Part shown: positions 1 through 52,900 of the stretch, one piece after another
Position numbering within the stretch: position 1 is the first letter of the stretch
Layout: every line of letters begins with the position of its first letter
Assembly (NCBI RefSeq): GCF_032362555.1
Contig: NC_083507.1
Span: forward strand, 3,351,001 to 3,415,000
Length of the DNA stretch: 64,000 nucleotides
From: Amyelois transitella
Lineage: Eukaryota; Arthropoda; Insecta; Lepidoptera; Pyralidae
Reading direction: 5' to 3'
The notes under the pieces: model-generated
Seen by the model: the letters and a program-made list of their open reading frames with translations, nothing else
What the model was told of the DNA's origin: nothing
Databases searched by the model: none
Translations under genes and position numbers: made by a program

Positions 1-115
1 CCTCATACCTATTCATTAAATTTCCAACGCTTCTTCACGGTTATTATTATATTATGATAATCATATCTTTTTAATGCTTACTTCCATCAATTGATAAATA
101 TTTTTGGCTATCTGT

Positions 116-196
116 CATGGGTCGACGATGATTTGTTGGCTAATTATATATTATATATATATATATAATTAGCCAACAAATCATCGTCGACCCATG
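116..196. repeat. large near-perfect palindrome, 36-bp arms
   Basis: The arm 116-151 (catgggtcgacgatgatttg, then ttggctaattatatat) is exactly the reverse complement of 161-196. The 9-bp centre is alternating AT. Total 81 bp, at the start of an AT-rich flank in which I see no gene (1-1400). It could be a fold-back MITE, a palindromic end of a mobile element or a cruciform-prone site. Confidence 0.9.
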
Positions 197-227
197 AATT
201 ATAATATATAATATATATATATATATA

Positions 228-300
228 GCTTCCGCTCGTGGCTTTGCTCGCGTGAATAGTACCCTATTTCCTTTTCCCAAAAATAAAGATGCATACATAT
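228..300 (-). repeat. repeat end of the 'cgcgggcgaagcc' type
   Basis: The stretch tagcttccgctcgtggcttt then gctcgcgtgaatagta resembles, in reverse, the cgggcgaagc.gcgg...tagcta motif also present at 6460-6493, 41695-41715, 43783-43805 and 45470-45490. These recur widely in lepidopteran DNA as ends of non-autonomous elements; the exact family is not assigned here. Confidence 0.45.
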
Positions 301-1425
301 ACGCCTAAACTAACATTGGTTTCTCATAAATTACAAATTAATAAAACCACGCGTCTGCCCTATTTAACTAAACTTTATCTATCGTCAGTGAATTAAGCTG
401 TGTGCTGAAAGATATAGCAGTCCCACATCATATTTGAATACATATATATTTCCTTTCATTTTGTAAATAAGGATTTTTATTGTTTTGTATTTACCAACAT
501 ACCCCAAATAATAAATTATATTTGTTTACGCAATCGTGTTTTATCTCTGTATCATCAAACTGTGAGTCATCTCATTTTGAGAACACTTTCGCTATCAAAC
601 GAACAAACAAGTTTTGTGTGAAGTTTATTATTAGATCATAAAGTACGTAAACTACGTTATAATGCTGGTGTGTATTCGGCGACATATTAATAGAGATGTT
701 ACCAATCACACATACACATATCACGTTTTTAAACCGTACGGCGTAGACACGACTCGAATCCTTCCTTCAGTTTGATGGTTTATTGAATAGAACAGAGATA
801 AAGATGTAATCATTTAACTAAATTAGGTAAGTCCTTTACTTTAAAAAAAATATCTTAAACGAAATCAATGCTTAATCATATGTCGTTATTTACGGTTTAA
901 AGGTACAAGAAACTTTTTGAATGAAATTTTAAAATTTGAAGAGTATTTCCTGGTATGAAATGAACAAAAAATGTTTGGCATTGATCTTTAACAGTCGACA
1001 TTTCGAAAATCCTACAAATACTTACGTCGAAGCAAAAATATGCGTCGTTGCAATTCGAATTTCTTTTCAAAAGCACGTTTTATTCTTATTTTTATAAAAA
1101 AAAAATATGCAGCATAAAAATTATGAACTTGAAATTAAACTAATAAGTTTCTTGGATTTCAAGATTTAGCAGTGGGCTCGTTGATGTCTTTTGTTCGCTG
1201 TTATTGTTTGTAATGTAAACATTTACATTTTTAAATTTTCAACACTACTTCAAAAATATGTAAACTTTTTATATTTGAACATCGTCGGGTCCTACCATGA
1301 CAACCCATTTACTTCGACCAATAAAGCGGCGTGATAAATAATATCTAATACAATATCTTGTTTTTTACTTAATTTGAAAAGAGATGAATTAAGCTTAGTC
1401 AAATCAAACACACCTAAAACCGAGC

Positions 1426-1453
1426 TATATAAAAGACACGCGTGTTTCACGTG
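1426..1453 (+). promoter_or_regulatory. second upstream TATA box with CACGTG E-box
   Basis: TATATAAAAG near 1426-1435 lies about 145 bp upstream of the main Gasp TATA box, and a perfect CACGTG palindrome at 1448-1453 follows it. It could be an alternative promoter for the same first exon or chance in AT-rich DNA. There is no additional ATG between it and 1659 that gives a better protein. Confidence 0.35.
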
Positions 1454-1570
1454 GCCTGAATTACTCAGAGCCTGATTAGTATGTTTCGTCACGGGAGCGG
1501 CGCGGGCGCAACCCCGGCAGGGTGCGCGGGCGCCCGGGCGTCGCTTTCCACCGCCGCGCCGCCCACCCGA

Positions 1571-1608
1571 TATAAAAGCCTTCGTCACCCATTCACCCGC
1601 CCGCAGTC
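1571..1608 (+). promoter_or_regulatory. Gasp core promoter: TATA box and initiator
   Basis: TATAAAAG at 1571-1578 is followed about 33 bp later by CAGT at 1604-1607, an arthropod initiator-like core, which puts the transcription start near 1605 and gives a 5' UTR of about 55 nt before the ATG at 1659. The flanking 1480-1620 stretch is strongly GC-rich in an AT-rich background. Confidence 0.8.
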
Positions 1609-1658
1609 TGTGCTCGAACGTTAAAGTGTCCACTTCTCCTGTGCAAGGACTTACAAAC

Positions 1659-4600
1659 ATGAATTCACGGTGTTTAGTAGTGCTAGCAGCCGCCCTCGCC
1701 GTGGGTACGTAATTATTCAAATATTAAGTGAGAAACCTCAGTGATGCTACGGTTTCTGTGAGCGCATGAATGGAAAAATTGCAGCCAATGTGGTGTAACA
1801 GCTCTCACACATAGTCCTGTGATCATGATGGCTATTCTTGTCTCGACAATGCTCATGTGAGCATGATTGTTGTGTGTGATTTCTTTGGGGTGTGCATGGG
1901 ATATTTATATATTGAAAATAATATACTTCTTATGGAAATCAACAGACTTTTCGACATATATATGCAAATAAAAATAATCTGTTTAAAAATTTTAATATTA
2001 TGAAGGTTCCGTCAGAACATTAAAATTAAACGTTGTAGCATTTACTGAGGGATAGAATAATAAGAACGGAATAATAAAAATCTGGTCCCAATTAATATGA
2101 TTAAAATTAAAAAAAAATCATATTACAGTCTCAGTTTGGTCTAAAAGTTCGACTGGTACGTTGTACGTTATTTAAGGTGCAAAAAGTATAAATAAATAAA
2201 TAAAATATTCGTATCATATTTCAAAATAACAAATTAAATTTCTTTTCAAAGTTCTTTCAAATGAGGAGGGACAAATCACATTTGATCAGAGTAATTAATG
2301 CAACTGATTTGCCAGGTGACACTGTTTCCTAATAGGTAAATCGTTACCATAGATTTTCGTAACAAGCATTAACATAGCTCCAAGCCTGTTCCGAGTAACA
2401 CACATCTGTTGTAACATTTAATCGGCTCCCATTGTGATACTAGTGTCAACGAGAGCAAAAAGCCTTATTGAGAAATCTCCAATCTTAACAAGCCAATTGT
2501 GCAGTTAAATAATAGTATTATCGTGACTAATTTCTTGGAACTTAACGTGTATCCAAGGTTGCCGTGTTTTACAGTCATGCTTGAACGGAAAGAAATTGCC
2601 ATTTGATATTTACATATAACTATCACCGTTTATCTCTTAGAAATCTGTCGGATGTAAGATCGTATTTACGAAAATGCAAGTTTCGCGAGCGTTGACCCGC
2701 GCCGTTGCATCGGAACTGCCAACGTAACATGGACACGAATTAAATAAAAAAGCGTGTCTGTTCGTACTTCTGTGTGTCCGCACTCTGTGGTTGGGGACTA
2801 TTGTTTAGAATTGTTACCACGTACCCAGTTCTCACAAGGCGTTTGTTTTACGTAACTTATGTCTTTACCCACTTCAATGATTTGAATTATTGTCTAAAGT
2901 AAATTCATGCATTCAAAACTACTTTTATAACGTAGACTAGGATTGAGACTCAACAAAGTAGTGAGAATAGATTTGCGTATCTCATAATTGTTCAAGAAAT
3001 AAGTTGAATGATATCCTTAAATGCCGTTTATGGCTCAATTTTATATTCATAGTATCAGTGTAAGAGCGTGAAGGCATTCAATTATGTAGCCCCGCGGTGC
3101 GTGCACTAATTTCACGAGATGAAAGAAAACAAGGTGAAAATGATTCAGCTTGGCTGAGCATAGACTCGACGGTATCATCATATTCAGCCCAGGAATGCAA
3201 CATGAAACTTTTCTAGATTATTGTAGTTTTTACTTTTTGTTGTAACTGTTACGTTTTCAGAACATTCTACAGACAATTATCGACATGGCATATGGTCATT
3301 AAAAAGGTGTTAAATTGAGAAGTGGCAAATAAAGTCTGAAAAGGAACAGATTTTGGATGACCCTGTTAAGACGTCCGGTTCTTGAAACTATTGAACAGGT
3401 CCATATTTTTACCTTATTATTAAATAACCAGATTTACCTGACTTTCGATAGCTTAACTTATCAATTCACACAAGAACGAACCCTGTCCAATTATTATCCA
3501 ATAACCAATATTATTATTGACATAATTTCATTCATATTTTCGTCAGTTTACCTTATATGGAATGAATCGACTTTCCATCGAGAGGCCATTAATAAAAAAA
3601 ATAAGGTCTTTAATTATGTAAGAGGTCAGCCGCCGCCGGAAACGTATGTAATTAACAGAATACGAACAATGTAAAGGAAACAAAATGCTGAAATTCCTTC
3701 TTTCTAACAATGCCAGTCGGTATCTCACGGTGTCGCTGAGGCCACACAATGCAGTGATCCTTGCGCTATTCTGGTCCTAGATAATTTGTATGTACGAATA
3801 CATGTCTCGCCACATTGTTAAAATATTTGCTTTAGCGATACCTAATATCAGTCATATATTAGTGAACAAGTTTTAACTAATAGTGTTTCATTCTAATAAG
3901 ACCACAGTATATGTTTTATTTTTGAGTGTAGATTTTAACAGACTTCTAATTGTCTATGCCTAGTTTTCTGCCAATTGCACACTTTTCATTTCTTTTTCAC
4001 TATTTTTTAATTTGTCAGCTGCTTGGAAGTCAAATAGTCCATATAACTTGATAGAAGTATATAACTTAATTTTCTACTTGGAAAATATCTTCAATAGATA
4101 CAGAATGATATCTACTGTCGTGTCGTGTGAGTAATCTAGATCATCACGTAAATTTATAGGTTTATGCAAGTTTTGTGTAGTTTTATAGTGAAACAAAGAA
4201 CACTCTGAGATCCAATTATCTAACAATATAATATAAGTAGAGATGAGAAAACTGTAATATGTATTTAAGAGTAAGCAGTTTCAATATAGCTAGGCTATAA
4301 AAACCAACGTCATTGTCCGTACTTAATGGCTATTAAGTAGAAAGCGGCTCTCAGCACAGGTCATGAAACTCCTCCGACAACGTATTATTTCTCTATTGAT
4401 CTCACAGGCTCAGCAGCCAGCGATTGTCTGTCCTTCGAGCCTTGTATATAAATAACATCATGAGGCCTACCTCATGTTTTGAACGTAATGTTTCTTAAGT
4501 CTTAAGCAGTTTGAACATCTTTGGATAAATCCAATATTTTCTCTTTAAGGTTTTTTTTCTTTCTTCTTCCCGAATCTAGTGTCAATTAATAAAAGTAATA

Positions 4601-7600
4601 ACAATCTTAAATTGATCATACAATGAAAGCGAAAGAGAACAAAAATGATTGAGAACCCTACCTAGCTGTAGATTGAAATGGAATAGAGTGAAAAACCGAT
4701 TAGATTAGACAAATGATCATATTTGATGAGTTTTAATTGTAAAAGTTGAATACTATAGACTAAAGTAAACGGTAGTATGTTTATTTTTATTTTTATTTCT
4801 TGAGTAATAATTATTAACGGAAATGATCGCTTGATAAATTGCACTCGATATTTCAAATATAATAAATATATGTACATAGTATTAGCAAATGAGCCATGAA
4901 AGTTTATACAAAAAAACGTGATTATATAATTGTTACGCGTGTACAATTATTTATAAAGAATTAATTTGTTATACTCAATTGGTGATAGTCAATATTATAA
5001 GTTGTATAACAAGTATAAACTGCATTTTATTTCAATTTAAATATTCGATCGATATCTCGGAATACCGCGTCATTTATGGCTCTTTTACACTTCGACTAGT
5101 GCTTAGTGCGAGTGGTTTTTTTGTGTTTAGGATTTTCAGCTCTGTATTCCTGAGAATTAATGCGACTAAGTGCATGCCATTTTAATTCTTGCCTATTGCC
5201 TTGCTCAAGATTTCGACGACCTGTTGTTAAGCTAATTGATAGGGATATGTCTCATCTTCTCACTCTCTCTCTATCTCTCTTTGTTGTAGTTTATGATGGT
5301 ACATTAGTACGAGTGGCTTATTTAGTGTTAATGTATAGTATATATATTGTACTTTCAGACTTTTCAAGACTGTTGGCTCTGTCTACCCCTAAAGGATATA
5401 AACGTGATTATATGTTTGTATGTATGTGTAGTATAAAATACGTTCATACAATTCCTGTTTAGCATTTTATTGTCTCATTCCAAACTTATTTTACTATACA
5501 CCAAAAGCCACTCGCACTTGGCTCTAATCAACGTGTAGACGAACCATTATCCGTCAAACGCGTCTGGCTCATAAAAAAACGAGATCTCTAGAACTTTCAC
5601 CACGTGCATCTGACAATAGTTATCTAATACTGTCAAGTTACGTCAGTCTGGGCCATCACCACTCATGTCCGTCATACATCACAATCAAAGAAATTGTGTT
5701 ATAGTCGTCGAAGGTAAATGAAAGAGGATCATCAAGACACCTGTCTTCAATATCTTGATAGACATACATTTTAATATTTGTAATGAGTTCGTTATGGTGA
5801 ATAGATTAAGCACTCGAGATTATAAAGTGATGTTTAAACCTCTTTGGCTGATATCAATTCTTATTTTGTTATGGTTTATACGATACGAGATACTACATGA
5901 TTAAGCTCGATGTGACCGTTAACTTTGGTAAACTGTATTTACTTTTTTTTAATACCTTGTATCTGACCTCAATCGATAGTAAACAGATGAGGTGTAAGGT
6001 GGTGCATGAAAGCTCAGATAATACCTTTCTTTAACTTTTGGAATGAAAATACATAAGTTGTATGTATCGGGTAGCAGAGACACTTATTTTATTTATTAGA
6101 TATTTATCGCTGGTTTAATTCTTAATTTTAAGACAAAAGTAACGCAATATTCAACTAATATTATAAATATAACTGCGAAAGTAAGTTTATTCATTTTTTA
6201 TCACTTCACGAGTTATAATGATTTAATTTTCCTGATCAAGTATATATATTTAAGAGTCTGGAGGAGGACATAGGGTACCTTTCATCCCGCTAAAAACTAT
6301 ATTCCCGTGGGATTAGCGGAAAACTAGTATTCAGGTGTAGGAAAATTCTTCGTTTTTTGTAATTATTAAAATTCGTCGCGTTTAATTCTTTGCTTTATAT
6401 AGGAGGTGAAATTTTTGTCGTTGAAATAGGTAGCTCGCTTTAAGTAGATGACGATAAATTCATGCGGGCGAAGCTGCGGATAATAGCTAGTTTATTATAC
6501 ATAGGCAACGCAAACAGCAACAAAAGAGTTTCCAATCATCCTCAAAACACTGACAACCTTTTAAAATGGTTATTCTATGCAAATGCAAGATCTGATTGAA
6601 GCTAACAGATAAAGGTCACGTTGCCCAATGAGGTTGCGGCGCGGGCGCATCGAGACAGAAATCGAAAGTAGAAGCCCACGCGAGAGGCTTGGTAGGTCAG
6701 ATATTTAGGCTTTCTTGGTTACTTCATCGATAACAGCATTTGTTATTTAATAACCGCGTAATGTTTGCCCTGTGGCGATCGACGTGTGGGTGTAAATTAC
6801 CTTCTTCGATCATTTTTCTAGACCTTGAATAAGTTGAGGGAATAAAAATATATTGAGGCTTTACTTTCCTCTAAAAATACAATCTTCACATTGTTAGTGC
6901 TACCAGAGTCAGAAGGGTTAGCTAAATAATATGCTCTATGCTTTTTATAATTATTTTTGCACCTTTGTTCATCAGTTGTTTCAAATATGACAAAGAGTAG
7001 GTACTTGGTACAAATGTAAAAGTTATTTAATTTATTTCATGATATTTTTTTACAAAACATTTGACACAATCTTCTAAGAAATTAACGATTCAGAATTGCA
7101 AACAAATGCAACAAGGTTCTAACAAGTACACACGGCACGGTTACAAAGCAGCTATTACATAATAAATGACAACTTACGAGCCGATAATTATGTCATATAA
7201 GTGCGCGTACGCATGCGACCGGGCAGGGCTCGGTGACGCTTGCGCAAGTCCTCTCGAGCCGATGACACCGATTCGAATAAAACTTTTTGCAGTTTTAATA
7301 TCTGTACTTGATTGGATTAAAAAAAATGACAGTTTTATCACTAAGCATGTGGGTATAATAGCTGTTTATTTGGGTTTTTGTGGATATTATATTATTGACA
7401 ATGAGATTTAAGTATTTATTCTTATTAAAATGCTTGACTAAACACTTGAGTAACTAAGTAATTTGGTGACTAACAATGGCAAATTTAAGGTAAAAATTAA
7501 ATAAAGAAAAAGAATTCGTACCAAGTTGCCAGTATCGAGCTAAACAAACCTCTTAATAAATTCGTGGAATCTTAGGCATTCGGTGACTAGTTCACCTCGG

Positions 7601-10600
7601 TAATCCGATTAAATAAGAAAGGCTAAACCGCAAACGATCACTTGACTTCATAGAGGCAATTTACGTCGGTTACAATCATTGAAATACATATGTTTCGCTT
7701 TATTTTCCACTTACTTTTTCAATTGATGTGTACAAGTTGATGACTAAGATGTTAAGGTTAAAATATGTTAAATTCTATTGAGTAAATATCACTAGAAATA
7801 AACAAGTATAATGTCAATTATATGATTAACCATGCCTAATAAATTTAACATGCCGTGAATTGTATACACTTATCTTTTTCATGATCTTCGAACGAGTTTA
7901 AGAGTTTACTTCGGTCTATGATAAATCAAAAATACCTAACAAATACAAAAAAAGACCATTGTATTGGACGCAATTGATTACCTAATTGGTTCTAGAACAA
8001 TCGTATCATTCAGATTAATCGATAAATTGCAGTTAAAAAAAATGTTTTGCAAGAAAAATTGACCTAAAAAGTGCAAATTAACTGAAACATGTGTATGTCC
8101 AATGATTACATAAAATAATTAGCGGTGTTTTCGCCATACATCGGCCGTTTTGTAATGATCACTGTTTCGGATCACTACGCTTGGTGATCATAGGAAGCAG
8201 TGTTACAGATTCACTTGTAACGTTCAGCTATTCATTAGCTTATGAAGTTGTTAGATAATGAGACATGAATTTGAGAACAATTTTAAAATGCTTAATGAAT
8301 CTTTTACTTATTACGTGTGGATGATATGAAATTTAGAAAGTAAATGAAATTATGCAATTGCCTCGCAGTGAGTTTATGACTAAAAAAAAACAAATAACTT
8401 ATATAAAAATTTCTTTAATTTAAAATTTATTCAATTAATTTAAATTGAGTTGATATTACGCGTTAAATTGCAAAAAATTAGTCTAGTAAACTTCGTCAAT
8501 TTTTAAAAATATACTATAATTCATAATTCTGTCTCTGGCTTACTGCCCTTACGCTCTTTTCTCATTCAACCCACAATTCGTACGTCGTTTAGTATGTTAC
8601 AAAATCAAGTGGAACTGTTAGTTTTACACAAGATAGTAAGAGAAGCTGAGGTTGCGACACTCCACGGATGAGCTCCTTCTTCGCTCTTGCAAATGTCACC
8701 GACCGGTGGCAACTCTGTGATGTAACATGCATATAATATGTACATAATTATGTACATTTACATTATAATACTAACACTCAAAGAATGCAATGTTCATTGT
8801 TTAATTTAACGATATCCTCTTTTCACTCACTTTAGCCTTGACGCTAAGAAGAACGCGAAAAGTACGGTATATTTGGATTATTATGTGTATATAACTCAAT
8901 ATCGAATAGAACTATGACCGCTTTTTGGAACTTCAATCGGCATTGATGTTATCCAAAAACCTATTCATGTATTTTCTAAGTAAAGTTACGTCCAATACAT
9001 ATTCTGGTAAAATCTTGTCTCGTTCCTAATCAATATGCAGATTGGCTATCTAGAACATTAAAAATAATTAATTCTTAAATTTATCATTATGTTTCATTTA
9101 ATGCTAGCGGCCTAAGTTTCCGCATTTTATTACAAGTTAAAGAACTGCTTGTTTATATTAATAAAATTGGGATATCAAACATTCTTACTGTTATGGTAAT
9201 TCTGATGAAAATTTAAAATGCCTGTTTACCATTATTAGTACATCAGTAAACTAAGCAAAAAAAAATAAACATCTTTGCCTAAACAAATATTAACAGTTAA
9301 GTAACAGCAAATCGAGACATCACGATTACCGTGTAACCTGGCTGAGAGACAAAACCTGGCATCGCACGTGCCAGACATTAGACAAAGCCACAACAAATGT
9401 GCCAACGTTAGTGTCAATTGTGCCATTACGACACGTCGTGGCGTGTCGTGTTGTGGCACATTCCTCGGAGAAAGAGCGGCCCTGCCCGAGACCGGTGCGT
9501 TGCAAAATAAGTTGCGCGCGCGCTTGGCAAACCCTTGGTGGTTTATTTTGAAATTCCAATTAAAATTCAAGAGGATTCATTTTGATGCGACATTTCAACA
9601 CAATTACAATATTGGTAGCTTTTCAAATATTCGGTTTCGCAAAGTTTAGGTAGAAATCATTCCGGAGATTGACTTATACTGGATTGTTTCGTTATATTAG
9701 TTAAGGATGATGAGATATATATTAAATGTATCATAATATCCTAATCGTTTTATTACATCGTTTTAGTTTTTTTTAAACGAAGAATACAGAACATGAAGTG
9801 ATCAAAACATACCTGAGAATCCCACTTGTAAATTTTAATTTAATTATTTTTATAACATACATAGTCTAGCCAATCTTATATAAATTCAAGACAAGTTTTT
9901 TTCTTATATTCATAATTTTCTGATGAAATATTTCATGCATTTAAGTTATAAGCCTACCTTTTATTACCCCTCTGTGTCTGCGTGAGAAATGCTTATATAT
10001 TCATACAAATGTCTGTATATTCATATAAATTCTGTCTCTCTTTACAGCGGCCGCCCAAGAAAGTTTTAAATGCCCAGACGACTTCGGCTTCTACCCACAC
10101 CACGTGTCGTGCGACAAATACTGGAAGTGTGACAACGGAGTCGCCGAGCTGAAGACCTGCGGCAACGGCCTGGCCTTCGACGCCACAGACAGCAAGTACC
10201 TCACCGAGAACTGCGACTACCTCCACAATGTAGAGTGTGGCGAGAGAACGCAATTAGGTAAGACCTTTTTACTTTTAAAAGAGTAGCATCTAGTCTTTAT
10301 TGTAAGTCAGGTCATGTTGCGCAAAGTACTGGTAGTCTGACAGTTGGGTCGTGTAGCTGAAGATCTGTGGCGTGTGTGTGTGACGAGATAACGCAGCTAG
10401 ATACATTTCTTACGAGTCTGGTCCTAATTTTTGTTTTTTTAATGTTGATGATGTTTAAAAAAAAACTGTCTAGCAGATTCATAATTAACATTTTGTTAGT
10501 GGTTATGCAAAAATTTACAACAAAAATGGTGACATCAAAAATAGTTGCTCAAGTGTTGACATATTTATGTCTAAAGTCTTTAAACAGTTCATAAAATACC

Positions 10601-13600
10601 AGATTAATCGCAACTTTTTATCCTTAATGGTACATTCCAAATCGTAGACAATGCAAGTATGTAGATTGAAGATTAACTAATCAGAGTATCTACGATCAAG
10701 AATTTGATAATATTATTCTTTTTGTTGCTACTGAGATCAACCAGGATGTGGCCAGAAGGTCATTCGGCCATTGCGGTTGGCGACAGTATCAATCACACAA
10801 CAACGGATTTAGCATCTGTGACATATCGTTACGTTGTTATTGAAAGGCCTTGAAATAGCAGACCTCCATTTTTTAAGTAGACGAACAACAGAGTTTTTAT
10901 GGTCATGTTTTTCTAAGAACTATTTAAGGATGATTTATTCTGAGATGTTAGATTCGCGCGACCTTGACATTTAAAAATGGGTTTCGTTTTTGGTTTGGAA
11001 GTGTGGGTAAACAAATATTATGATGACTTAGCGGATCCCATGTAATAATGCGATTGGATTGGTCCTGATTCCCTCAGCTTTTTGGCATTGGATCCTGATT
11101 CTTTCAGCTATTGGGATAAAAAAGATAATCCCATTTTTTCGGAATCTCCATGGGAACATTACGTAATTTCTAAAAATATTTACATAAACATATTGATTAA
11201 ATACATCTATTATCAACAGAGCCTCCAATCTCAACACCTCACTGCCAGAGGCTGTACGGTATCTTCCCCGATGAGAACAAATGCGACGTGTTCTGGAACT
11301 GCTGGAACGGAGAGGCCTCCCGTTACCAGTGCAGCCCTGGGCTCGCCTACGACAGGGAGTCCCGCGTCTGCATGTGGGCCGACCAGGTCCCGGAGTGCAA
11401 GAACGAGGGTACGTTTCAGAAGATATTCTTAACTGTTGAATTTTCAATTGTAACTTTGAAAAATAGATGAGAGAATTAATTTTTTGAGAAATTTTAAGCT
11501 AAATTAGTTTTTGGTTACCAGACGGTGATGGTGGAAAAAGCAACAAAAAAAAAATATATATTTGTCAAATATTGAGCTGTAACAATACATTCCATATTTT
11601 TTAATATTTAAAAAAATAAACTATGTTGTTCTTGTCTTACGTTTTGAAATAATAATGATTATTCTGAACTTCTGAAGCACAAAATTCTTACTTAAAACTA
11701 ATCTGATCACATTATCTGTGTGCACCTGTCTCTTTCAGCGAATTTCCTCCAACTCAGCACAGCCGTCGCTCGCCTTTTATATTTTCTTCTTCAACTCTTT
11801 CACTCACGTAACCTTTCTTGGTGTTTCCCAGAAGTAGCGAACGGTTTCTCTTGCCCCGCGCCTGGTGAAGTGTCCAACGCCGGTTCCTTCAGCCGTCACG
11901 CCCACCCTGAAGACTGCCGTAAATACTACATCTGTATGGAGGGAGTAGCCCGGGAGTACGGATGCCCCATTGGTACAGTCTTCAAGATCGGAGACTCTGA
12001 CGGCACTGGCAACTGCGAAGATCCCGAAGATGTTCCCGGATGGTAAGTTTTATATTTATTTTCATCTGATATCTAAGCACGAGCGCTGTAAAGTTCATAT
12101 TCACATTTGTAATCTATCTTCAATTCGATCAGACGACTGAAGTGAGTTTGAACTGGCACTACTTAACCTACTGGTTTGATATCACTGGCTATGTGGTATA
12201 TCAGCCCTTTCGATACAATTAACATTCTTGTACTTTGTTGTTGCTGTCATACTTCCTATATGCAAATAAGAGGTAAAATTAAAATTATTGTTTTTTGTTG
12301 TTGTTTTGTTGTAAAAATTATACATTTTTTTGGTATCACAGCACGATAAAGTACATCATGTAAATTACAGAAAGATTCCTATAACACTTCCACTGGAGCA
12401 ATGTCGACCTTGTGACTAACTTTCTTCCGCACCTGAACCCCGCAGCTGAGCTGTTGCACTCACACATCTTTAAGGCATTAGGCATTCCAGTTACCTATAG
12501 GTACATTACAGACTCGCCCACTTAGATAACTAGCAGATATGCGGTTCGGAGGCTTGCACAACATATTTAGGCCGTAAAATTAACATGACTTAAGTCAAAT
12601 TTCAATGTATGGCGTCACACGTGAGGTCGTGGTCAGTCTGCGCCTAACGGGCTGTATGGTAATGAATATTTTCATACAAATATTCACAGCCGGACATATT
12701 GTATGGCTAACTGTACTGAGGCATTGAACTGTTAATGTAATTTATAACGCTACGATTCGATGCAGTAAGGACTTCGCTTGGTCCGTTACTTAACATATAT
12801 GATAATTTACTACCTTGGCTTCGATGAATTTGAATATAATCTTTTCGAATAAAAATCACGAAGTTACTTTTTTCCGAATAATTTAATGTTCGGTTTTTTG
12901 TGTAAACTCCGAGCCCCATTATTATGAGTTGAAAAACATGTTAGATAATACTACTAAGAAAAGCGAACGGACACTATTCTAGTTTCAAGGCAGTTTACTC
13001 TGCAGCTAGCTGTGGACAAGTTTTCATTACACAATTCTCAATCAGAATCTATATATCATTTAACATAGTAAAAGTAGTTGGAAATTGATATAGCTTTAGA
13101 AGTACGCGACGTAGAAAATAGAGTTAAGTATTGAGTAGAAGCGGCAGGTAGTAAGTTCGCGTACATTTTCAGCGAGGACTACTACGGGGATTTGGATTTG
13201 AAGACGATCCGCAAGAGCGAGCTGCTAGCTGGTCTGCAGCAAGACGGCAGCTCCAGACCCACACAGCCCAAGCAGCTCAAACCCCGCCCCCAGAAGGAGA
13301 ACTAAACACCTATCCCCACCTTAACCTTTAAAATACTCACATAATTTAAAGCAACCAAACTTCTTCACACATCACGAGTAACAAATCCTGGCCGAATGTA
13401 AATTTAAAATAAAAGTTACTCGTGATGCGCGAAGCTTTACTTCAGGTTCAAATTTAAAATTTCGAATTTAGTGAGGTATTTGTATTCGTTTCTAGTTGCC
13501 AAATACTTTATCGTTTTAGCCTTAGTACAGTTTCATGAGGCCGGTTAGGATATTAGTTGAATCATACAGCGATAGATATATTTATTTTATATTGTATTTA

Positions 13601-14427
13601 GCTTTGATAGTATCTCATAACGTAACAGAACCGGTGTTAAGTTCGTCTCGTAACTGTATTTGTATAGAAATTTTTGTACCTAATAACAATAAGAGCAGGT
13701 TTGCATTTAAACGAAGTAGTTCTGTGTAAAACTTAGAAATCGCACATCCTGAATGTAGGTAACACCCATGACTTTGTAAATATTTTAGTACTGCATTATT
13801 TCGCTGCGACTGAGTGTTGTTGTTTGATAGAAACTGTAATACTTAAGTTTTATTATTAGTGATAAAATAAATAAAAGATAAAACATTAAATTGTGTTTCT
13901 TGTATGTAATTGCACTGTTGCACATTTTCCCTAACTTTCACGACCACTGTTTCCTTTGATGCATTCACTCTCTAATAACATTTTAATAACTTCTTCGTTC
14001 TTTTTCTGTCTAATACTATTGTTAATAATAACAGTCGGTTATTGTGACTTCAAACTGACCTTCCTGGGGCCCTACAGGTATGTCGACTCAATATCATTAA
14101 CACTTGGATTAATAATATATGACATAAATATAAGAAAAAACTTAGAATAACAATCAGCAAATAATTGTTTTAATTGTTTATAAATGCAGCAAAAAAGTTT
14201 AACCTTTAGGATTTTGTTTAAAAAAGTGTTCTAAAGTTTGACCTCGTTGACGAAATAGGTACTAAATATTTATGGTTGTTATTCTAATACACATTTTGAG
14301 TAATAAATTTTTTGTTTTCTAATCAAACATACCTAAGAAGTATTTGTTATATTTTATTTTTAAAATTTACAGCGAAGACTACTACGGTGACGTGGACCTG
14401 AAAGCCTTGAGGAAGTTGGGATATTGA
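1659..14427 (+). CDS. Gasp: Gasp / obstructor-C (CPAP3-C), secreted chitin-binding cuticle protein, two C-terminal isoforms
   Basis: Coding exons 1659-1704, 10048-10257, 11220-11408, 11832-12042, then either 13173-13305 (262 aa) or 14373-14427 (236 aa). All junctions are GT/AG with matching phase. The start is the first ATG after a TATA/initiator and opens a signal peptide (MNSRCLVVLA...), probably cut before Gln19. Three CBM14 domains with six cysteines each lie at about residues 24-79, 94-145 and 156-219. The stretches FKCPDDFGFYPHH and CDVFWNCWNGE match insect Gasp as I know it, so the identification is strong. Family role: extracellular binding and organisation of chitin in cuticle and tracheal lining. 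The codon of the last cysteine (219) is split by the last intron. Intron 1 is 8.3 kb; introns 2-4 (0.4-1.1 kb) hold nothing else I recognise. Codon usage in exons is GC-rich against AT-rich introns, which helps fix exon borders. Confidence 0.95.
1705..10047 (+). other. Gasp intron 1 (8.3 kb)
   Basis: AT-rich intron from gtacgt to tttacag. No exon was found inside. It holds a SINE 3' end (5360-5428), a degraded repeat ending in the cgggcgaagctgcgg-type motif (about 6245-6493), and two unusually GC-rich islands at about 7130-7275 and 9330-9560 that could be regulatory. The open frames at 3357, 4979, 5160, 7166 and 9368 lack splice context or family resemblance. Confidence 0.7.
5360..5428 (+). 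mobile_element. SINE 3' fragment
   Basis: Matches the last 70 bp of the window's main SINE (ttcaagactgttggctctgt, ctacccc.aaggatat, acgtgattatatg, then a TATG-like tail). 5'-truncated, within Gasp intron 1. Confidence 0.75.
13173..13305 (+). CDS. Gasp: Gasp terminal coding exon, isoform a
   Basis: First of two alternative last exons. It follows an acceptor ending ...ttttcag, completes the split Cys219 codon and encodes EDYYGDLDLKTIRKSELLAG followed by a Gln/Pro/Lys-rich basic tail, stop TAA at 13303. Drosophila Gasp has a similar tail (DYYGDLDLK.IRKSELL), so this is the ancestral-looking ending. The 3' UTR has polyadenylation signals near 13408 and at 13866-13875. Confidence 0.92.
13370..13427 (+). 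terminator. 3' UTR stem-loop with AATAAA in the loop (Gasp isoform a)
   Basis: CATCACGAGTAAC (13370-13382) pairs perfectly with GTTACTCGTGATG (13415-13427), a 13-bp stem with a 32-nt loop. The loop contains AATAAA at 13408-13413. CTTC and GAAG just outside can extend the stem after a small internal loop. It begins 64 nt after the stop codon. Confidence 0.7.
13866..13875 (+). terminator. distal poly(A) signals of Gasp isoform a
   Basis: Two overlapping AATAAA hexamers (13866-13871 and 13870-13875), followed within 30 nt by a GT-rich stretch (ttgtgtttcttgtatg), the usual layout of a polyadenylation site. This ends the isoform-a 3' UTR about 570 nt after the stop. Confidence 0.65.
14373..14427 (+). 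CDS. Gasp: Gasp terminal coding exon, isoform b (exon duplicate)
   Basis: Second alternative last exon, 1.2 kb downstream of the first. It starts in the same phase with a paralogous sequence, EDYYGDVDLKALRKLGY, and stops at TGA 14425-14427, giving a tail 26 residues shorter. It lacks the basic Gln/Pro/Lys tail. Its own polyadenylation signals lie at 14682-14687 and 14970-14975. The two exons cannot both be translated because the first has a stop and its own poly(A) signals. A pair of C-terminal isoforms is also described for Tribolium CPAP3-C, which supports this exon being functional. Confidence 0.88.
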
Positions 14428-14681
14428 ATGACGAGAAGCGGCTCCAAGGGCAGACTGAAATTCAATCTTTTCGACTTGATTTGATTCATTATTCTCTTCT
14501 TAAGCCACGGGATAAGTGTGTGCGAAAGTGATGTGTAATTTTCGGTATGTCTGAGAGGCGCTCTCTGTGTGAACTCTATGGACTATTCTCGAAGCTAGTG
14601 CCTTTATTTAAAAATGCTGTTCGCTTATATTCCAATCGATATATTTTCTATTGAAATATCGATTGCCTAGTCGATACAATC

Positions 14682-14975
14682 AATAAAAGTAAGTGCTAAC
14701 GCAATTTCAAATTGATTTTTTTATACAAAACTGAATACCTAATTGCGTTATGCAATGTGTTACACTTTCGGGTATTAAAAATTTACTTTGACAGTTTCCG
14801 AGAAAACGTGAATCTTTCGAAATTTCGTTTCTGAGTGTTGCCAATATGAGCTTCCAGTGACGACCTTGACATGGCACCAACTGAGCGTTGGTTCCGTGTC
14901 GAATAATGTTGTTTAGTCATAAATTAAAAATTTAAGTTTTAAGATAGCATGTTAATACGAGTTTATGTAAATAAA
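14682..14975 (+). terminator. poly(A) signals of Gasp isoform b
   Basis: AATAAA at 14682-14687 and again at 14970-14975 lie downstream of the isoform-b stop. The second is followed by tacttatattctac and a T/G-rich stretch and probably marks the end of the gene. A 10-bp stem (CAATCGATAT at 14633-14642, ATATCGATTG at 14656-14665) precedes the first hexamer by 16 nt. Confidence 0.6.
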
Positions 14976-15958
14976 GTACTTATATTCTACAACATGGATG
15001 TTTTTTATTGTTATCCTTGTAATCCATAATAGACTAATATTTTGGTAACACATTCAAAAATGTTCCAAAGAAAGCTGAGGTGTAAAATAAAAGACAATTG
15101 ATATATCGATATTTATTATCATGTATGTATTTTCTAAAAAAAAGAATACAATAACATTCACATAGTAAAATAAATAAGTGTCACTTGTCGTTGTCACTTT
15201 CTAAGAACAAATGATTTAATAATTAATTAAATATCCATAAAAGAGAGTGGGTTACAAGTAATGGACTAACTTGTAGAAAGTCTGAGAAACTAAACCTGTA
15301 GATAATCATAAATAAATTCTCTTTTCTCTTTATACTGTCACTGTAATTTCTCTAGTCAGGTTTATTTACTCTTTGCTCAAACACAATTTTAATTCAGTGA
15401 ATTAATTATAAAAGTAAGACCTCGTTACCACTCACGACAGTTCTTTTATTACACCATCAGCTGATGAAATAGGATCAAATGTTACATATTCCGACTTACT
15501 TAAATAAGAATGTCACTATCGTAAGTATGTGTGGGATTAGGTTCATTTACCGATTACAGAGACCTTCAATTGACAGGTCTAAGTCAAGAAAAGACTATAC
15601 CACCTCTTTCTGGATATGGTAAGTATACATATTAGATAAAGCATAAAACATTGGCATTAAGAGAGATAAGATTTTTTATTAATTGAAATTTGTGATAAAT
15701 TCATAAAATGAATAGATTATGCAATGCCACTGACGATGCACTGGGAATACGTAAAAATGAGATGAAATAAAATTAATGGCTTTGTAAATTATAACTTCAG
15801 TCTGAAATAAGCGCTTGATGTTTATTCCACACTAATATAATATTTCATGTGTCCACGAGCGCGCATTTCGGAGTGTACTTTGAACTTAAACTAATGGAGC
15901 ATTTTACCAGCATCTTAATACGAAGCGAACACCTAATTTCTTTCCGAAAATATACCTA
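14976..15958. other. convergent intergenic gap between Gasp and the two-domain gene
   Basis: About 1 kb of AT-rich DNA between the Gasp poly(A) signal and the stop codon of the minus-strand neighbour. TTTATT at 15821-15826 (AATAAA on the minus strand) is a candidate poly(A) signal for the minus-strand gene, 133 nt past its stop. No other feature seen. Confidence 0.5.
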
Positions 15959-18900
15959 TTATTTATTAATTGTGGATAGTAGTTGGTTGATAGCATCTTC
16001 GCGCGACGTCGCCTTGTGACTGGCTAGCAAGCCTGGAAAGATACATTTTGTTAGGTAAAATAGAACTGTTAACCAATAGTTTTTCAAGCTTCAATACTGG
16101 TCTGGTAAGAATTAGTTATAAAATCAATCAAAGACTTATTAACTTTGGTCATCCAGCTAATACACATATCTCATGTTTTGTTTTATCTTTGAAATGATCA
16201 GTGATAAATCATACCTAATTGTAAAAAATTTAAAATTCTAAATGTTTGTTAACCCTTTTAAATTTATGGTTTTACTTAAGACTCTTCGTTTTTCTCTTAA
16301 ATAAGTACGGTCTTATTCTTAGCTGTTTTTTAAAGGCAAATAGTCTGAAACTGAAATTGCATCCATATTTACTGTAAAATGAATTAGGAGTAGTAAGAAG
16401 TCCAGCGTGGTTCCCGGCACCAATAAAAAAAGAATAGGACCACTCCATCTCGTGGCTCCTATGGATGTCGTATAAGTGTACTGAGGGAACGGCTTATAAA
16501 CTTGGGATTCTTATTTTAGGCGATGGGCTAGCAACCTGACACTTTTTGAATCTCAATTCTATCATTAAGCCAAACAGCTGAACGTGGCCTATCACTCTTT
16601 TCAAGACTGTTGGCTCCATCTACCCCGCAAGGGATAAAGACGTGATTATATGTATGTATGTATGAAAGAAGTATAGACACCTACTACTGAAAATTTGCGA
16701 TAGTTATAAGTATTTTTAAGTAATATTAAAACTATAAATAAAGAACTACGTAGTTAACTACAAAATCCTTTTGACAAAAACCTAGGTTTTTACAAGAGGC
16801 GACTCCCATCTGACCTACCTTAGCTCAACCTACTTTGACCTCACTTGGTAAAAAATATACTTACTTTCTTGCTTAAAAATGGAATTGGAGAAGATGAAGT
16901 CACTTCCAAAATAAGGTTTAGGTGCTGGTTTAAGTAATGGGATTTCTGGAGAGGCGGGGGGTGGATTTGACGGGGGTGCCGTGGGGTAGAAGGTAGGGCG
17001 TTGGGCAGGGGTGTTGGTCGACGAAGCTGGTGGGGCTGGCGCTGGTGCAGTCTCAACATTGGGCAAGGATGGCGCGTCTGGCAGCGTCGGCGCGCAGTTA
17101 ACTTGATTACGGTAATCGCATACTCCGAGTGTCTGAAAAATCAATAACCAATGATGTAAAACTTTATTAGTGATAAACAAAGTATTACCAAAATTTCTAG
17201 GCATGTTCCTTGGGAAATGAAAGCACTAACACGGCAGCCTTAAACGGGGACTATTTAAACTAGTCGAGCTGCGGGCGTATAAATGCCTAAATCAATGCCC
17301 TCATTTGAAAATGCAAAAGTTTGTAAGAAGGTATGTGTGGATGTGTGTATATTTGTTACGATATATTTGCACGTAATATTTCACGTTATTTATTTCATTT
17401 GCGAAGACGTCAGTAGGCGTGCCCAAGACCTTAAACGCAACGGACTGGAGCGACAACAAATAACATTACGGAGGTTATCTTTCGAATGTATCAGCAAAAC
17501 AAAACAAACAAAATGCAAGACAACAAAGCAAGGAATGCCGCTTCATCCTGGCTCGGTCTTCTGTGCATTGTGAAGTACCTCGTTATAGGCGAGGTCGGCA
17601 GGACATTGGAACTTCACCGGCTGCTTGCCGACGCACACGAAGAACTCATTACAGTTTGCCTTGTTTCTGAACGTCTGGAAGTCTTGGCGGCAGAGATTCG
17701 TCGGCACTTGAAAAATAAAGTTTTGTGAACTTAAATTGTAATAGGTTCCTATAGAAATGTGTGACTTTTCACATCATGTCATCTCATTGACATATTCTTG
17801 ATAACATTAAATCAGCTGCCCATCAAGATAATATTAGGTTTTTTATTTTAACAATATCTCATTCAATTTAAATGTCTGTGGTTTACGTTTTATCTAAAAA
17901 AATAATTAATTTGCATGTTTACCCATGAATAAATTTATTAAATTTTCAGCTGCAACGTAGGTCAAATAACATTCTACGAATTCAATATTTGGATTGTAAT
18001 TCAAGTTAGTATCTTCTATAGCTTTATGATTGTGTTATGTCAATTTGGTTGTTATCTGTGCTAATGAATAAATAAGTAAGCCCACAATGTTAGTTGTGCA
18101 ACATGATGATGTTACGGAATTTTACAATATTTTGCATAATATCCACTTGACATTTTCATCTATTTGTATGGTAAATTTTACATAACTAAATTAGCATCCA
18201 ATAGGCGTAGATCAGATCGTGGAAAGCGATAAATATTTTAGTAACAAAGCAACGGTGTTAAATAATTTGAAAATCTTATTGTTGCATCTGTTGTGTTTAT
18301 TTAAATGTGTATCAAGGCCAAAAATACGGTACTTAAAACTTTTAGTACAAGACTTTGGGTATATCGAACAATACAATACAAAATAAAATGTTTTGTGTAT
18401 TAGTTACTCGTATCAATAACCGCAGTAAATTAAGTGAAAATAAAATCATACTTTAAGAACGCAAATTCTATTGCCATCATTTAAGCAGCCCATTAAAGTT
18501 GCAAACGAGCCTAACAAGATGATTAACACTTACCAGGCTTCAACCTGTTTTTGCAATCGACATTATCAGAGTAGTCGCAGAACCCAGCTCCAGAGAACAT
18601 CAAGCCTTCTGGGCACTGCTGCTCGAAGGCCCACCCATCCCAACAGTTGAGAAAACTGCTGCAAGATTTAGGAGATGCGAAGGACCCTCGTTTCCCGGAG
18701 CATAAGGCATTGGGTTCAATGACCGGCTGCTTCTGAGGGAGAATGAGGTTGTTCTCGTAGACTGGGTCGTTGGAGATGTCCTGGATCACCTGCTCCGAGA
18801 CGGGGATCATGAAACACGCCGAGGTCCCGCTGATTGATATCGGCTGAAATTGTAACACAAATTATAATTACCGTAGAATTTTTTTTCGTGAATGTTGAAA

Positions 18901-34700: not shown

Positions 34701-35276
34701 GCATCAATGGGAACACTCCTCGCCGCTCGGGATGCAAGCTCGGACAAGCGTTCGATGACGTCAACAAGCGGTGCGAGTGGGCGAGGAAGGTGCCTGAGTG
34801 GTATGTTATATTTAGTTAGTTTCTTCTTGTAGGTTTTGAATGTACTATTTTAACACCCGAATCAATATTTTCTCTTGTAATGAATATTTAAATCTATTCT
34901 AATAGTCGTGTCTGTAATCTGTTGATCGGTTTGTTGTTGTTTCGGTTTTTTAAGCTTGAGGTGCACTTATGATAGAAGCATATAATTATGCTGTGATACG
35001 ATTCGGGTTTATCGTCACCTATACAAAACCGGAATAAGGAGAAAATATCTCTCTCTGGAAAATTATCACGATAAAAATGCACAACCAAAAATCTGCTAAC
35101 CTCCATCCACTTTCAGCGCTGATTGGTACAAGGGCCAGCTGACAGACGCTGAGCTGGACGCTCTGGAGAACCCCCCGACTCTAAAACCCAAGGTATCCAG
35201 CAGCTCACAGCCTTCGCGCAGAAAGCCACAGCGCCCAGGGAAAGGGAAGTCAGCTCCTGTGGTCGACGAAGAGTAG
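28712..35276 (+). CDS. obst-B: obstructor-B (CPAP3-B), secreted chitin-binding cuticle protein
   Basis: Exons 28712-28754, 31275-31437, 31883-32001, 33936-34136, 34605-34800, 35117-35276, GT/AG throughout, 293 aa. Signal peptide MAFRCVGVVLLCLVVLASSA, then a basic linker and three CBM14 domains at about 50-102, 117-172 and 182-241. Motifs DGMVFNDYSPMEEKCDLP, DGKFNMITCP and THPRYADPEDCQFFYVC are the hallmarks of insect obstructor-B. The last cysteine codon is split by the final intron (TG|C), after which comes ADWYKGQLTDAELDALENP and a Ser/Arg/Lys/Pro-rich tail. In this family the protein is secreted apically into chitin matrix. A SINE lies directly before the acceptor of exon 2. Introns 2, 4 and 5 are short and hold nothing else; the frame at 34239-34469 in intron 4 is spurious. 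Confidence 0.95.
28835..28943 (+). mobile_element. RTE-like LINE 3' end fragment
   Basis: cttgcatgaagaaagtgatg ... gtggatgaagcgaac ... gcaaagtggaaagatgtagt ... ctgcctacccctccgagaaa matches the larger copy at 47838-48078, which still encodes the C-terminal peptide of a non-LTR retrotransposon protein. It lies 80 bp after obstructor-B exon 1. Confidence 0.7.
30650..30756 (+). mobile_element. SINE, central part
   Basis: taagggatatacttataaac, ttggaattctttt, agattgcctagcaacttgtc, ttattaagctaaacagctga: internal segment of the SINE without its head or tail. Confidence 0.65.
30990..31256 (+). mobile_element. SINE abutting the obstructor-B exon 2 acceptor
   Basis: Near full length: tgcctggtggttcctggcac ... 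aaaggcgactaggtgatcgg ... ctaagccaaacagctgaaag ... gttggctctgtctaccccgc ... tatatgtatgta. The tail ends about 18 bp before the first base of exon 2 (31275), so the branch-point region of this intron must lie in SINE-derived or tail-adjacent DNA. Confidence 0.85.
32002..33935 (+). other. obstructor-B intron 3
   Basis: 1.9 kb AT-rich intron between the first and second chitin-binding-domain exons. Short A/T-rich direct repeats (aaataaataaataaata around 32290-32320) are present; no gene, complete mobile element or additional exon is seen. Confidence 0.6.
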
Positions 35277-49939: not shown

Positions 49940-52900
49940 CACGCTTTCTTCGGCAGCTTGTTCTTGTCCAATGACTGGCCCTCGTAGTAATTCTCACTGA
50001 AATAAATAAAAGGTTATATTATTCTTCTTTGTATTATTATTTTCGTTTAAATTTAACGTGATTTTATTTTTGTATTTAAGATTATGATGATTTAAAATGT
50101 AATTATGCCTGCTATATACTTTGCCCGCGTAAAAATAAAAATCTTGTTTAAATCCCGTTCTGGGAAAGTAGGTTTTTTTATCCATACTAAAATTGTAAAT
50201 TGTGTTTGTTTGTCCGTCTTTCGCGTCAACACCACCGATCCGATCAACATGAAATTTTGCAGACATAGAGAGGCAGAGTCGCGGGAAAAAGCTAGTTTTA
50301 TAATTTAGTTGATTGACGTTTACCCGTATAGGTAAACAGATAATATAAATAAAAACATATTGTGTTCCCTGTCTACCCCGCAAGGGATATAGACGTCATT
50401 ATATGTATGTATGTACATATTGTGTTCTTACCATCCGGGCACCTTTTCAGGTTCGTCACACATGAAGGTGTCTTCATTGTACACCTTGCCCGAGGGACAG
50501 CTGCCCTTCTGAGGCTGTACTCCGTTGCGGCAGATGTAGAACTTCTGGCAGTCTTCTGGGTGCGGGAAAGTGGGGTGTGGCAGTGCACGGCCATTGGGAC
50601 CTTGAACTTCACCGTCCGGGCAGGAGAAGCCGTCGTCTAGAACGTCTGAAAGAAAATTTGTTTATGAGTAAGAGTATAACTTTTTTTATTTAATAATTTG
50701 TAACGGAAGCGATGATTCGGCTGTTTTTTAGAGCTGAAAAGTTCATATGGAGTTTGATCCCCTGCAAAGCTTGCGGAGGTCAGACGGGAGTTGCTTCGTA
50801 TAGAAAACCTGACTCACCCACTGTATTTAGAGCACATACATTTACATACATACATGTGATCACGTCTTTATATCTACGGAGTAACAGTCTTGAAAAGACT
50901 AATAGGCCACGTTCTGTTGAGATTCACATAGTGATAGGTTGCTAGCCCATCGCCTAAGAGAAGAATCCCAATAGCCTATCTCTTAATCGCTATTTACGGC
51001 ATCCATGAGAAAGAGAAGGAGCAGTCCTATTTAAAAGTACCGGGAACCACACGGCACCGCAGGGCACTGTATTTAGAGTATAGGGAATTTTGCCTAACCA
51101 TTGGATTATGGAATAAAAATCGAAGTTACCCTTAGTGATCTGGTCGCAGCGGCGGTTGACGGCGTCCTTCCAGTCGCAGTTGGAAGTGTCTTCGTTGAAG
51201 TACAGCCCGGGCGGGCACGGGTGCTCGTTGGGCACCCCGTCTGAGCAGTAGTAGAACTTGTCACAAGCCTGGAGGAGACATTTTTAATATAATAACCCAT
51301 TTTTTTTCATAGGTTTTCATATACAGTAATACCTCGGACTTACGCGATAGGTGGGACTGAGCGCTATCCGCGTAAGTCGAATTCGCGTAAGTCGGGGTAC
51401 AATTTTGCATATAAAGACATACAAAGTATATTTAATTGGGACTGGAGACTAAATAAAACAATAATTTAGGAAATAATTAGTATCTAATTTTAGATAATAT
51501 GACAAACTATATTAATAGAGTGTATAAACACAATCCGAAGTTATTTTGATGTAGAAGGTTTCATAAATTGTAACAAAGTCGTCTGACGAGTCAATGATTT
51601 TTTCTTCTCCCGTAATATCTCCTCGTAGCATCCTAGTAATTTTTTTATTCTATGTTTTGTAACAAAAATGCGCTCTTCATTGGAGTCTATGTTTTCCAAA
51701 ATTGTTAACCCTTTTTCAATCGAACTGAGGGCTTCTGTCAAGTTTCCAACTGTCATTTGATCTTCTAATTGAACTGGATCCAAAGAATCATGTTTATCAA
51801 TTTCTTCCTCTTGTTCACGCATTGTCATGAGCTCATCAATTGTAAGCTCCTCATTGTATGAATTCAACAGCTCTTGAACATCATCACTATCCACTTCTAA
51901 ATTTATTTTTCTACCAAGTGAAAAGAGTCGGTTCTACTTCGTTTGGATGCCATAGTACTTAGTAAATATCTCAGGTCGTCGCACAACGCACAAAAAAACA
52001 CAAAATCGTAACTTATGTACCTACGCGCCGATTCCGCACTACTCGTCTGTGCCTGTTGTTAACTGAACGAATAATAATGCAGGCGGGAGGAGTCGGAAAC
52101 AAACGCCGACGCTTTACCTTGACTACGCGACGTTCAAACAGAAAACGAATAAATTAAAAAAAATTCAAAATTCAAAAATTTTTATTCATTATTATAGGAT
52201 ACCTCCATATCGCTTAATAATTGTCGTATGGTTTACAACTTGGTTGACGTCAAATAAATTACTTAAAAACTAAGTTTACTGCCGCTTCCAAGGCGTCAGT
52301 GCAGAAGAAGCGGTAACAAATAGACGAGAAAATTAAATCGCGTAACTCCGAATTCGCGTAAGTCGAGGTAGCGTAAGTCGGGGTATTACTGTATCATCAT
52401 TAAAATTGTAATCGAGTCAAGATTGTGTGAACGTGAAAGATTTTTTAAATTGCTTTAAAGAGGATCATTTTTAAATGTATAGTTAATAATTATTCATAAA
52501 AAAAGGTGTAAAAATCTAATATATTTATTGTGTATGTATATTTAGCAATGTAAGCAAATTTTCACAAATACCTGAATAGGTAATACCACTAATCAAACAG
52601 TGATCAAAAGAAGAAATTAATGTTACCTGCGGGTCGGGGTGCTTGAAGTAACCGTTCTGACGGGGACATCCCTTTGATGGCTTAGGTTCCTCTGAAAAAA
52701 TTATAGTAACAGTGATTGCGAGCACACACATTTACGTTTTTCAGATGAAACAAACATTTAATTTACAAGTGGTATTAATTTTAAACGTTTTAAATTAAAA
52801 TCGATGGAGACAATCAGTAAATTATCTTTCTGCACAATATATAGTTTCTAGTTAACCCTTTTCGGCAGAGTTAAAAGGACCATTTTCCACTATAAGCACC

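Follow-up and report, generated by a model that had tools for sequence, protein, structure and literature searches.

How can one gene give two proteins that carry the same chitin-binding domains and differ only in how they end? The question is raised by a locus within C3:3351001-3415000, a 64,000-nucleotide stretch (hereafter the window, in whose coordinates positions are given unless a contig is named) of a 327-Mb, 33-contig genome that appears to be a moth's, where a first-pass annotation had placed two "mutually exclusive terminal exons" in the gene Gasp. Understood as alternative last exons, that wording holds: the locus is very probably a CPAP3-C (Gasp/obstructor-C) gene whose fifth exon was duplicated long ago, and in which exon 4 would be spliced to either of two last exons, here labeled 5a and 5b by their order in the gene. 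We use the name Gasp because the exon layout matches, and take CPAP3-C to be the same gene as Gasp/obstructor-C. The name fits, given the three CBM_14 domains characteristic of CPAP3 proteins and a five-exon layout with an alternative exon 5, a count that includes the putative exon 1.

Two last exons complete the same chitin-binding domain

The gene model comprises five exons (Table 1), the first four common to both isoforms and the fifth being either 5a or 5b. Introns 1–3 are in phase 1. The last intron is in phase 2 and splits a cysteine codon as TG/C (the slash marking the exon border), with the C supplied by both last exons. Their common donor after 12042 reads CGGATG/gtaagt, while the acceptors before 13173 and 14373 read ttttcag/CGAGGAC and tttacag/CGAAGAC, respectively, bearing out the initial description of two last exons that start in the same phase behind separate acceptors. 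With the chosen exon 1, the spliced frames are open over 262 (5a) and 236 (5b) amino acids and end in CEDYYGDLDLKTIRKSELLAGLQQDGSSRPTQPKQLKPRPQKEN and CEDYYGDVDLKALRKLGY. Pfam recognizes three CBM_14 stretches in each isoform (E-values of 5.9e-31 and 3.3e-31). Read by eye, each domain contains six cysteines, and the last one of domain 3 is the split one, just as had been proposed. The open frames, the splice signals, and the split codon can all be read directly in the DNA.

The exon at 1659–1704 was the sole candidate in window positions 1–10040 to pass a filter on hydrophobicity, phase, and donor, and would imply a first intron of 8.3 kb. It is hydrophobic and in the matching phase, as the first exon of a secreted CPAP3 protein would be, and is joined to the gene by inference only.

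After the common opening, 5a adds 29 residues with an isoelectric point (pI) of 9.7, so that a basic Gln/Pro/Lys tail is indeed confined to the first of the two last exons; for the whole ending, the pI is 8.1 in 5a and 4.7 in 5b. Choice of 5a, with its own stop codon and putative polyadenylation (poly(A)) site, would yield a protein whose three chitin-binding domains are followed by a basic extension of 29 residues. For 5b to be chosen, transcription would have to run through the poly(A) region of 5a and splicing to bypass the 5a acceptor, giving a protein that ends in KLGY. With the final cysteine of domain 3 restored by either exon, the two proteins should bind chitin alike and would differ in the tail alone. 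The argument that isoform choice would couple splicing with polyadenylation is sound, as it follows from the exon layout; the two processes may compete here, and the tails may differ in function.

The last exons look like an old duplication

The openings of the two last exons had been described as related, and this proved correct. With the 15 opening residues of 5a as reference (self-score 84), 5b reached 74. In 500 dinucleotide shuffles of 13306–16500, the best scores went no higher than 33, with a median of 13 and a 99th percentile of 26, and chance similarity was rejected. The best scores in the rest of the window were 18 on the plus strand and 25 on the minus strand, the latter with an internal stop; the next-best minus-strand score, 23, falls in a CPAP3 paralog, on its last exon.

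Residues are identical in 11 of the first 14 full codons. Among these 14 codons, four are identical, seven differ synonymously, and three non-synonymously (L/V, T/A, and I/L), which amounts to 13 nucleotide differences in 42 positions but only three residue differences in 14. When 13 changes were placed at random, at least 11 residues were kept in none of 20,000 trials, under a simple null in which all base changes are equal. At the DNA level the two exon regions match best where 13165–13202 pairs with 14365–14402, at 82% across 38 bp, of which 8 bp belong to the acceptor and 30 bp to the exon. As the match ends after these 38 bp, a recent duplication of the last exon was rejected. Weaker, AT-rich matches—one of 35 nt (71%) that links the putative 3′ untranslated regions (3′UTRs), and an 18-nt blastn match with an E-value of 0.042—we take as chance.

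The homology of the openings and the constraint on their protein are thus visible in the DNA itself: the codon pattern, together with a DNA match confined to 38 bp, argues for what looks like an old duplication held by selection at the protein level. Insect relatives were sought in viral contigs (no pattern match) and in prokaryote contigs (five pattern matches, none of them a relative), and the duplication could therefore not be dated by sequence. A search of solved structures returned seven distinct sequences at E-values up to 1, all of them other CBM_14-type proteins or chitinases.

Comparable exon pairs in other insects

The arrangement is already known from Tribolium and Nilaparvata, and the present gene is a further example. 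According to Jasrapuria et al. (2012; PMC3504105), TcCPAP3-C of Tribolium castaneum has alternative exons 5a and 5b. RNA interference against 5a alone arrested 5% of the insects and against 5b alone 10%, whereas targeting a common exon, or 5a and 5b together, led to arrest at the pupal-adult moult. Transcripts of 5b were low on pupal days 1–2. That paper ascribes orthologs of both C5a and C5b to several insect orders, and its own Table 1 marks CPAP3-C as present in Lepidoptera, the two forms not being told apart. In Nilaparvata lugens, NlugCPAP3-C5a and -C5b are alternative transcripts of one gene (Pan et al. 2018, as recounted in PMC13073896), and knock-down of either the common or the C5b part caused ~90% mortality (PMC13073896).

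By its published description, TcCPAP3-C resembles the present gene in its two alternative fifth exons but belongs to a beetle; NlugCPAP3-C shares the C5a/C5b pair of a single gene but is hemipteran. The portions consulted of PMC6417726, PMC12426002, PMC6214029, and PMC7570057 make no mention of CPAP3-C splice forms. Our literature search, little aimed at Lepidoptera and with subscription papers outside its reach, found no lepidopteran description of a 5a/5b pair in the texts it covered, and we make no claim that such a pair is unpublished.

Poly(A) signals and alternative readings of the locus

The first-pass annotation had also credited each last exon with its own stop and poly(A) signals. 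The separate stops stand, and AATAAA follows each of them; beyond the copies listed in Table 1, one lies at 14302, between the signals after 5a and exon 5b, and another at 15086, after the stop of 5b. The annotated interval itself stops at the 5b stop codon, and the putative 3′UTRs would extend past both stops. By itself, however, AATAAA says little about where poly(A) sites lie, because both strands are equally rich in it: there are 24 copies in the 4401 bases of this region, 12 per strand (shuffled sequence: mean 11.4, maximum 20).

Could 5b be a relic, formerly used but no longer spliced in this species? It is short (18 residues including the shared cysteine), and its use in mRNA is predicted from sequence. 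Yet its acceptor, phase, and stop are all intact, and seven of its ten changed codons are synonymous while the flanks of 5a and 5b have kept almost no resemblance, which makes this reading highly improbable. We see next to no likelihood that a single mRNA contains both exons, with a donor in the 3′UTR of 5a joined to the 5b acceptor and 5b reduced to 3′UTR of a long isoform. A loose scan of 13173–14372 did find 14 GTRA sites, the best-looking of them (TGTAG/GTAACA at 13759) ahead of the AATAAA at 13866. The same interval contains no GTRAGW donor, though, and such a transcript would leave the conserved reading frame of 5b unexplained. Separately, an AG/GTATGT at 14076–14079, within 14074–14082, between 5a and 5b and following tgaccttcctggggccctac, might be taken for a recursive splice site and is probably there by chance.

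An old duplicated fifth exon, with exon 4 joined to either copy, therefore remains our preferred explanation. What weighs against it is that the AATAAA motifs prove little at this density, that the presence of both last exons in this species' mRNA is a prediction from the genome, and that the exons at 13173 and 14373 were matched to 5a and 5b of Tribolium and Nilaparvata by position and count, not by exon sequence.

Table 1 Features of the Gasp locus and its CPAP3 paralogs (window coordinates unless a contig is given).
Feature	Position	Strand	Remarks
Exon 1 (probable)	1659..1704	+	Start codon, signal-peptide-like MNSRCLVVLAAALAV, phase-1 donor; TATAAAAG upstream; putative
Exon 2, first CBM_14 domain	10048..10257	+	Acceptor, donor; Pfam CBM_14
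Exon 3, second CBM_14 domain	11220..11408	+	Acceptor, donor; Pfam CBM_14
Exon 4, third CBM_14 domain, ending with the TG of the split Cys codon	11832..12042	+	Shared phase-2 donor
Alternative last exon 5a, coding part	13173..13305	+	(C)EDYYGDLDLKTIRK and basic Gln/Pro/Lys tail; stop TAA
Putative 3′UTR of 5a	13306..13900, end approximate	+	AATAAA at 13408, 13866, 13870; GT-rich run just after 13885
Alternative last exon 5b, coding part	14373..14427	+	(C)EDYYGDVDLKALRKLGY; stop TGA
Putative 3′UTR of 5b	14428..15020, end approximate	+	AATAAA at 14682, 14970
CPAP3 paralog	50432 to 49996	-	Split-Cys last exon
CPAP3 paralog	C3:3415770 to 3415010, just beyond window end	-	Split-Cys last exon
CPAP3 paralog	34800 to 35117	+	Split-Cys last exon

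CPAP3 paralogs show one convincing last exon each

A search of the same genome gave 53 exon-level matches at E-values up to 10, of which we read 13 domain regions. Besides Gasp, three of these end their last domain in a split cysteine codon (Table 1), written TG/C or TG/T, with last exons that open CENYYEG, CEDWYKD, or CADWYKG. The three paralogs are part of a chitin-binding gene cluster on the same contig as Gasp.

For each paralog we scanned 9 kb downstream for an acceptor followed by a cysteine-completing frame whose residues follow an acidic or aromatic pattern, a filter that would miss a second exon of a different type. This returned 17, 16, and 16 candidates for the paralogs at 50432, C3:3415770, and 34800, respectively, mostly long-shot frames. 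Judged by acceptor and sequence, one last exon per paralog was convincing (CENYYEGQSLDKNKLPKKA, CEDWYKDAEDTAPKARS, and CADWYKGQLTDAELDALENPPTLKPKVSSSSQPSRRKPQRPGKGKSAPVVDEE); two of the tails are short and one is long and basic (Ser/Pro/Lys/Arg). Gasp alone thus has both kinds of tail, in contrast to a single last exon per paralog within the limits of this filtered scan. The idea that short endings came first was dropped, as the third paralog carries a long basic tail; because single-copy last exons of both kinds occur in the family, this genome does not reveal which kind is ancestral. One tentative and rather doubtful interpretation is that the CPAP3 genes of the cluster each fix one kind of tail, while Gasp would keep both through its duplicated last exon, as a conserved, stage-dependent tail switch that leaves chitin binding unchanged.

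Elsewhere in the genome, G000:C15:3297068-3302719 contains 17 CBM_14-like matches (30–41% identity to Gasp), mostly at regular spacing and within a single 2317-residue open frame, which probably encodes a long multi-domain chitin-binding protein.

Implications for Gasp and the CPAP3 family

As a discovery the exon pair is ordinary: the original observation was correct, and the feature is known in other insects. What the locus adds is the placement, at exon level and in an apparent moth, of a splice choice already linked to moult lethality in a beetle and a planthopper. Its exact coordinates allow isoform-specific tests of Gasp, and the paralogs, with their single-copy last exons—two short, one long and basic—offer a frame for asking what the tails do.
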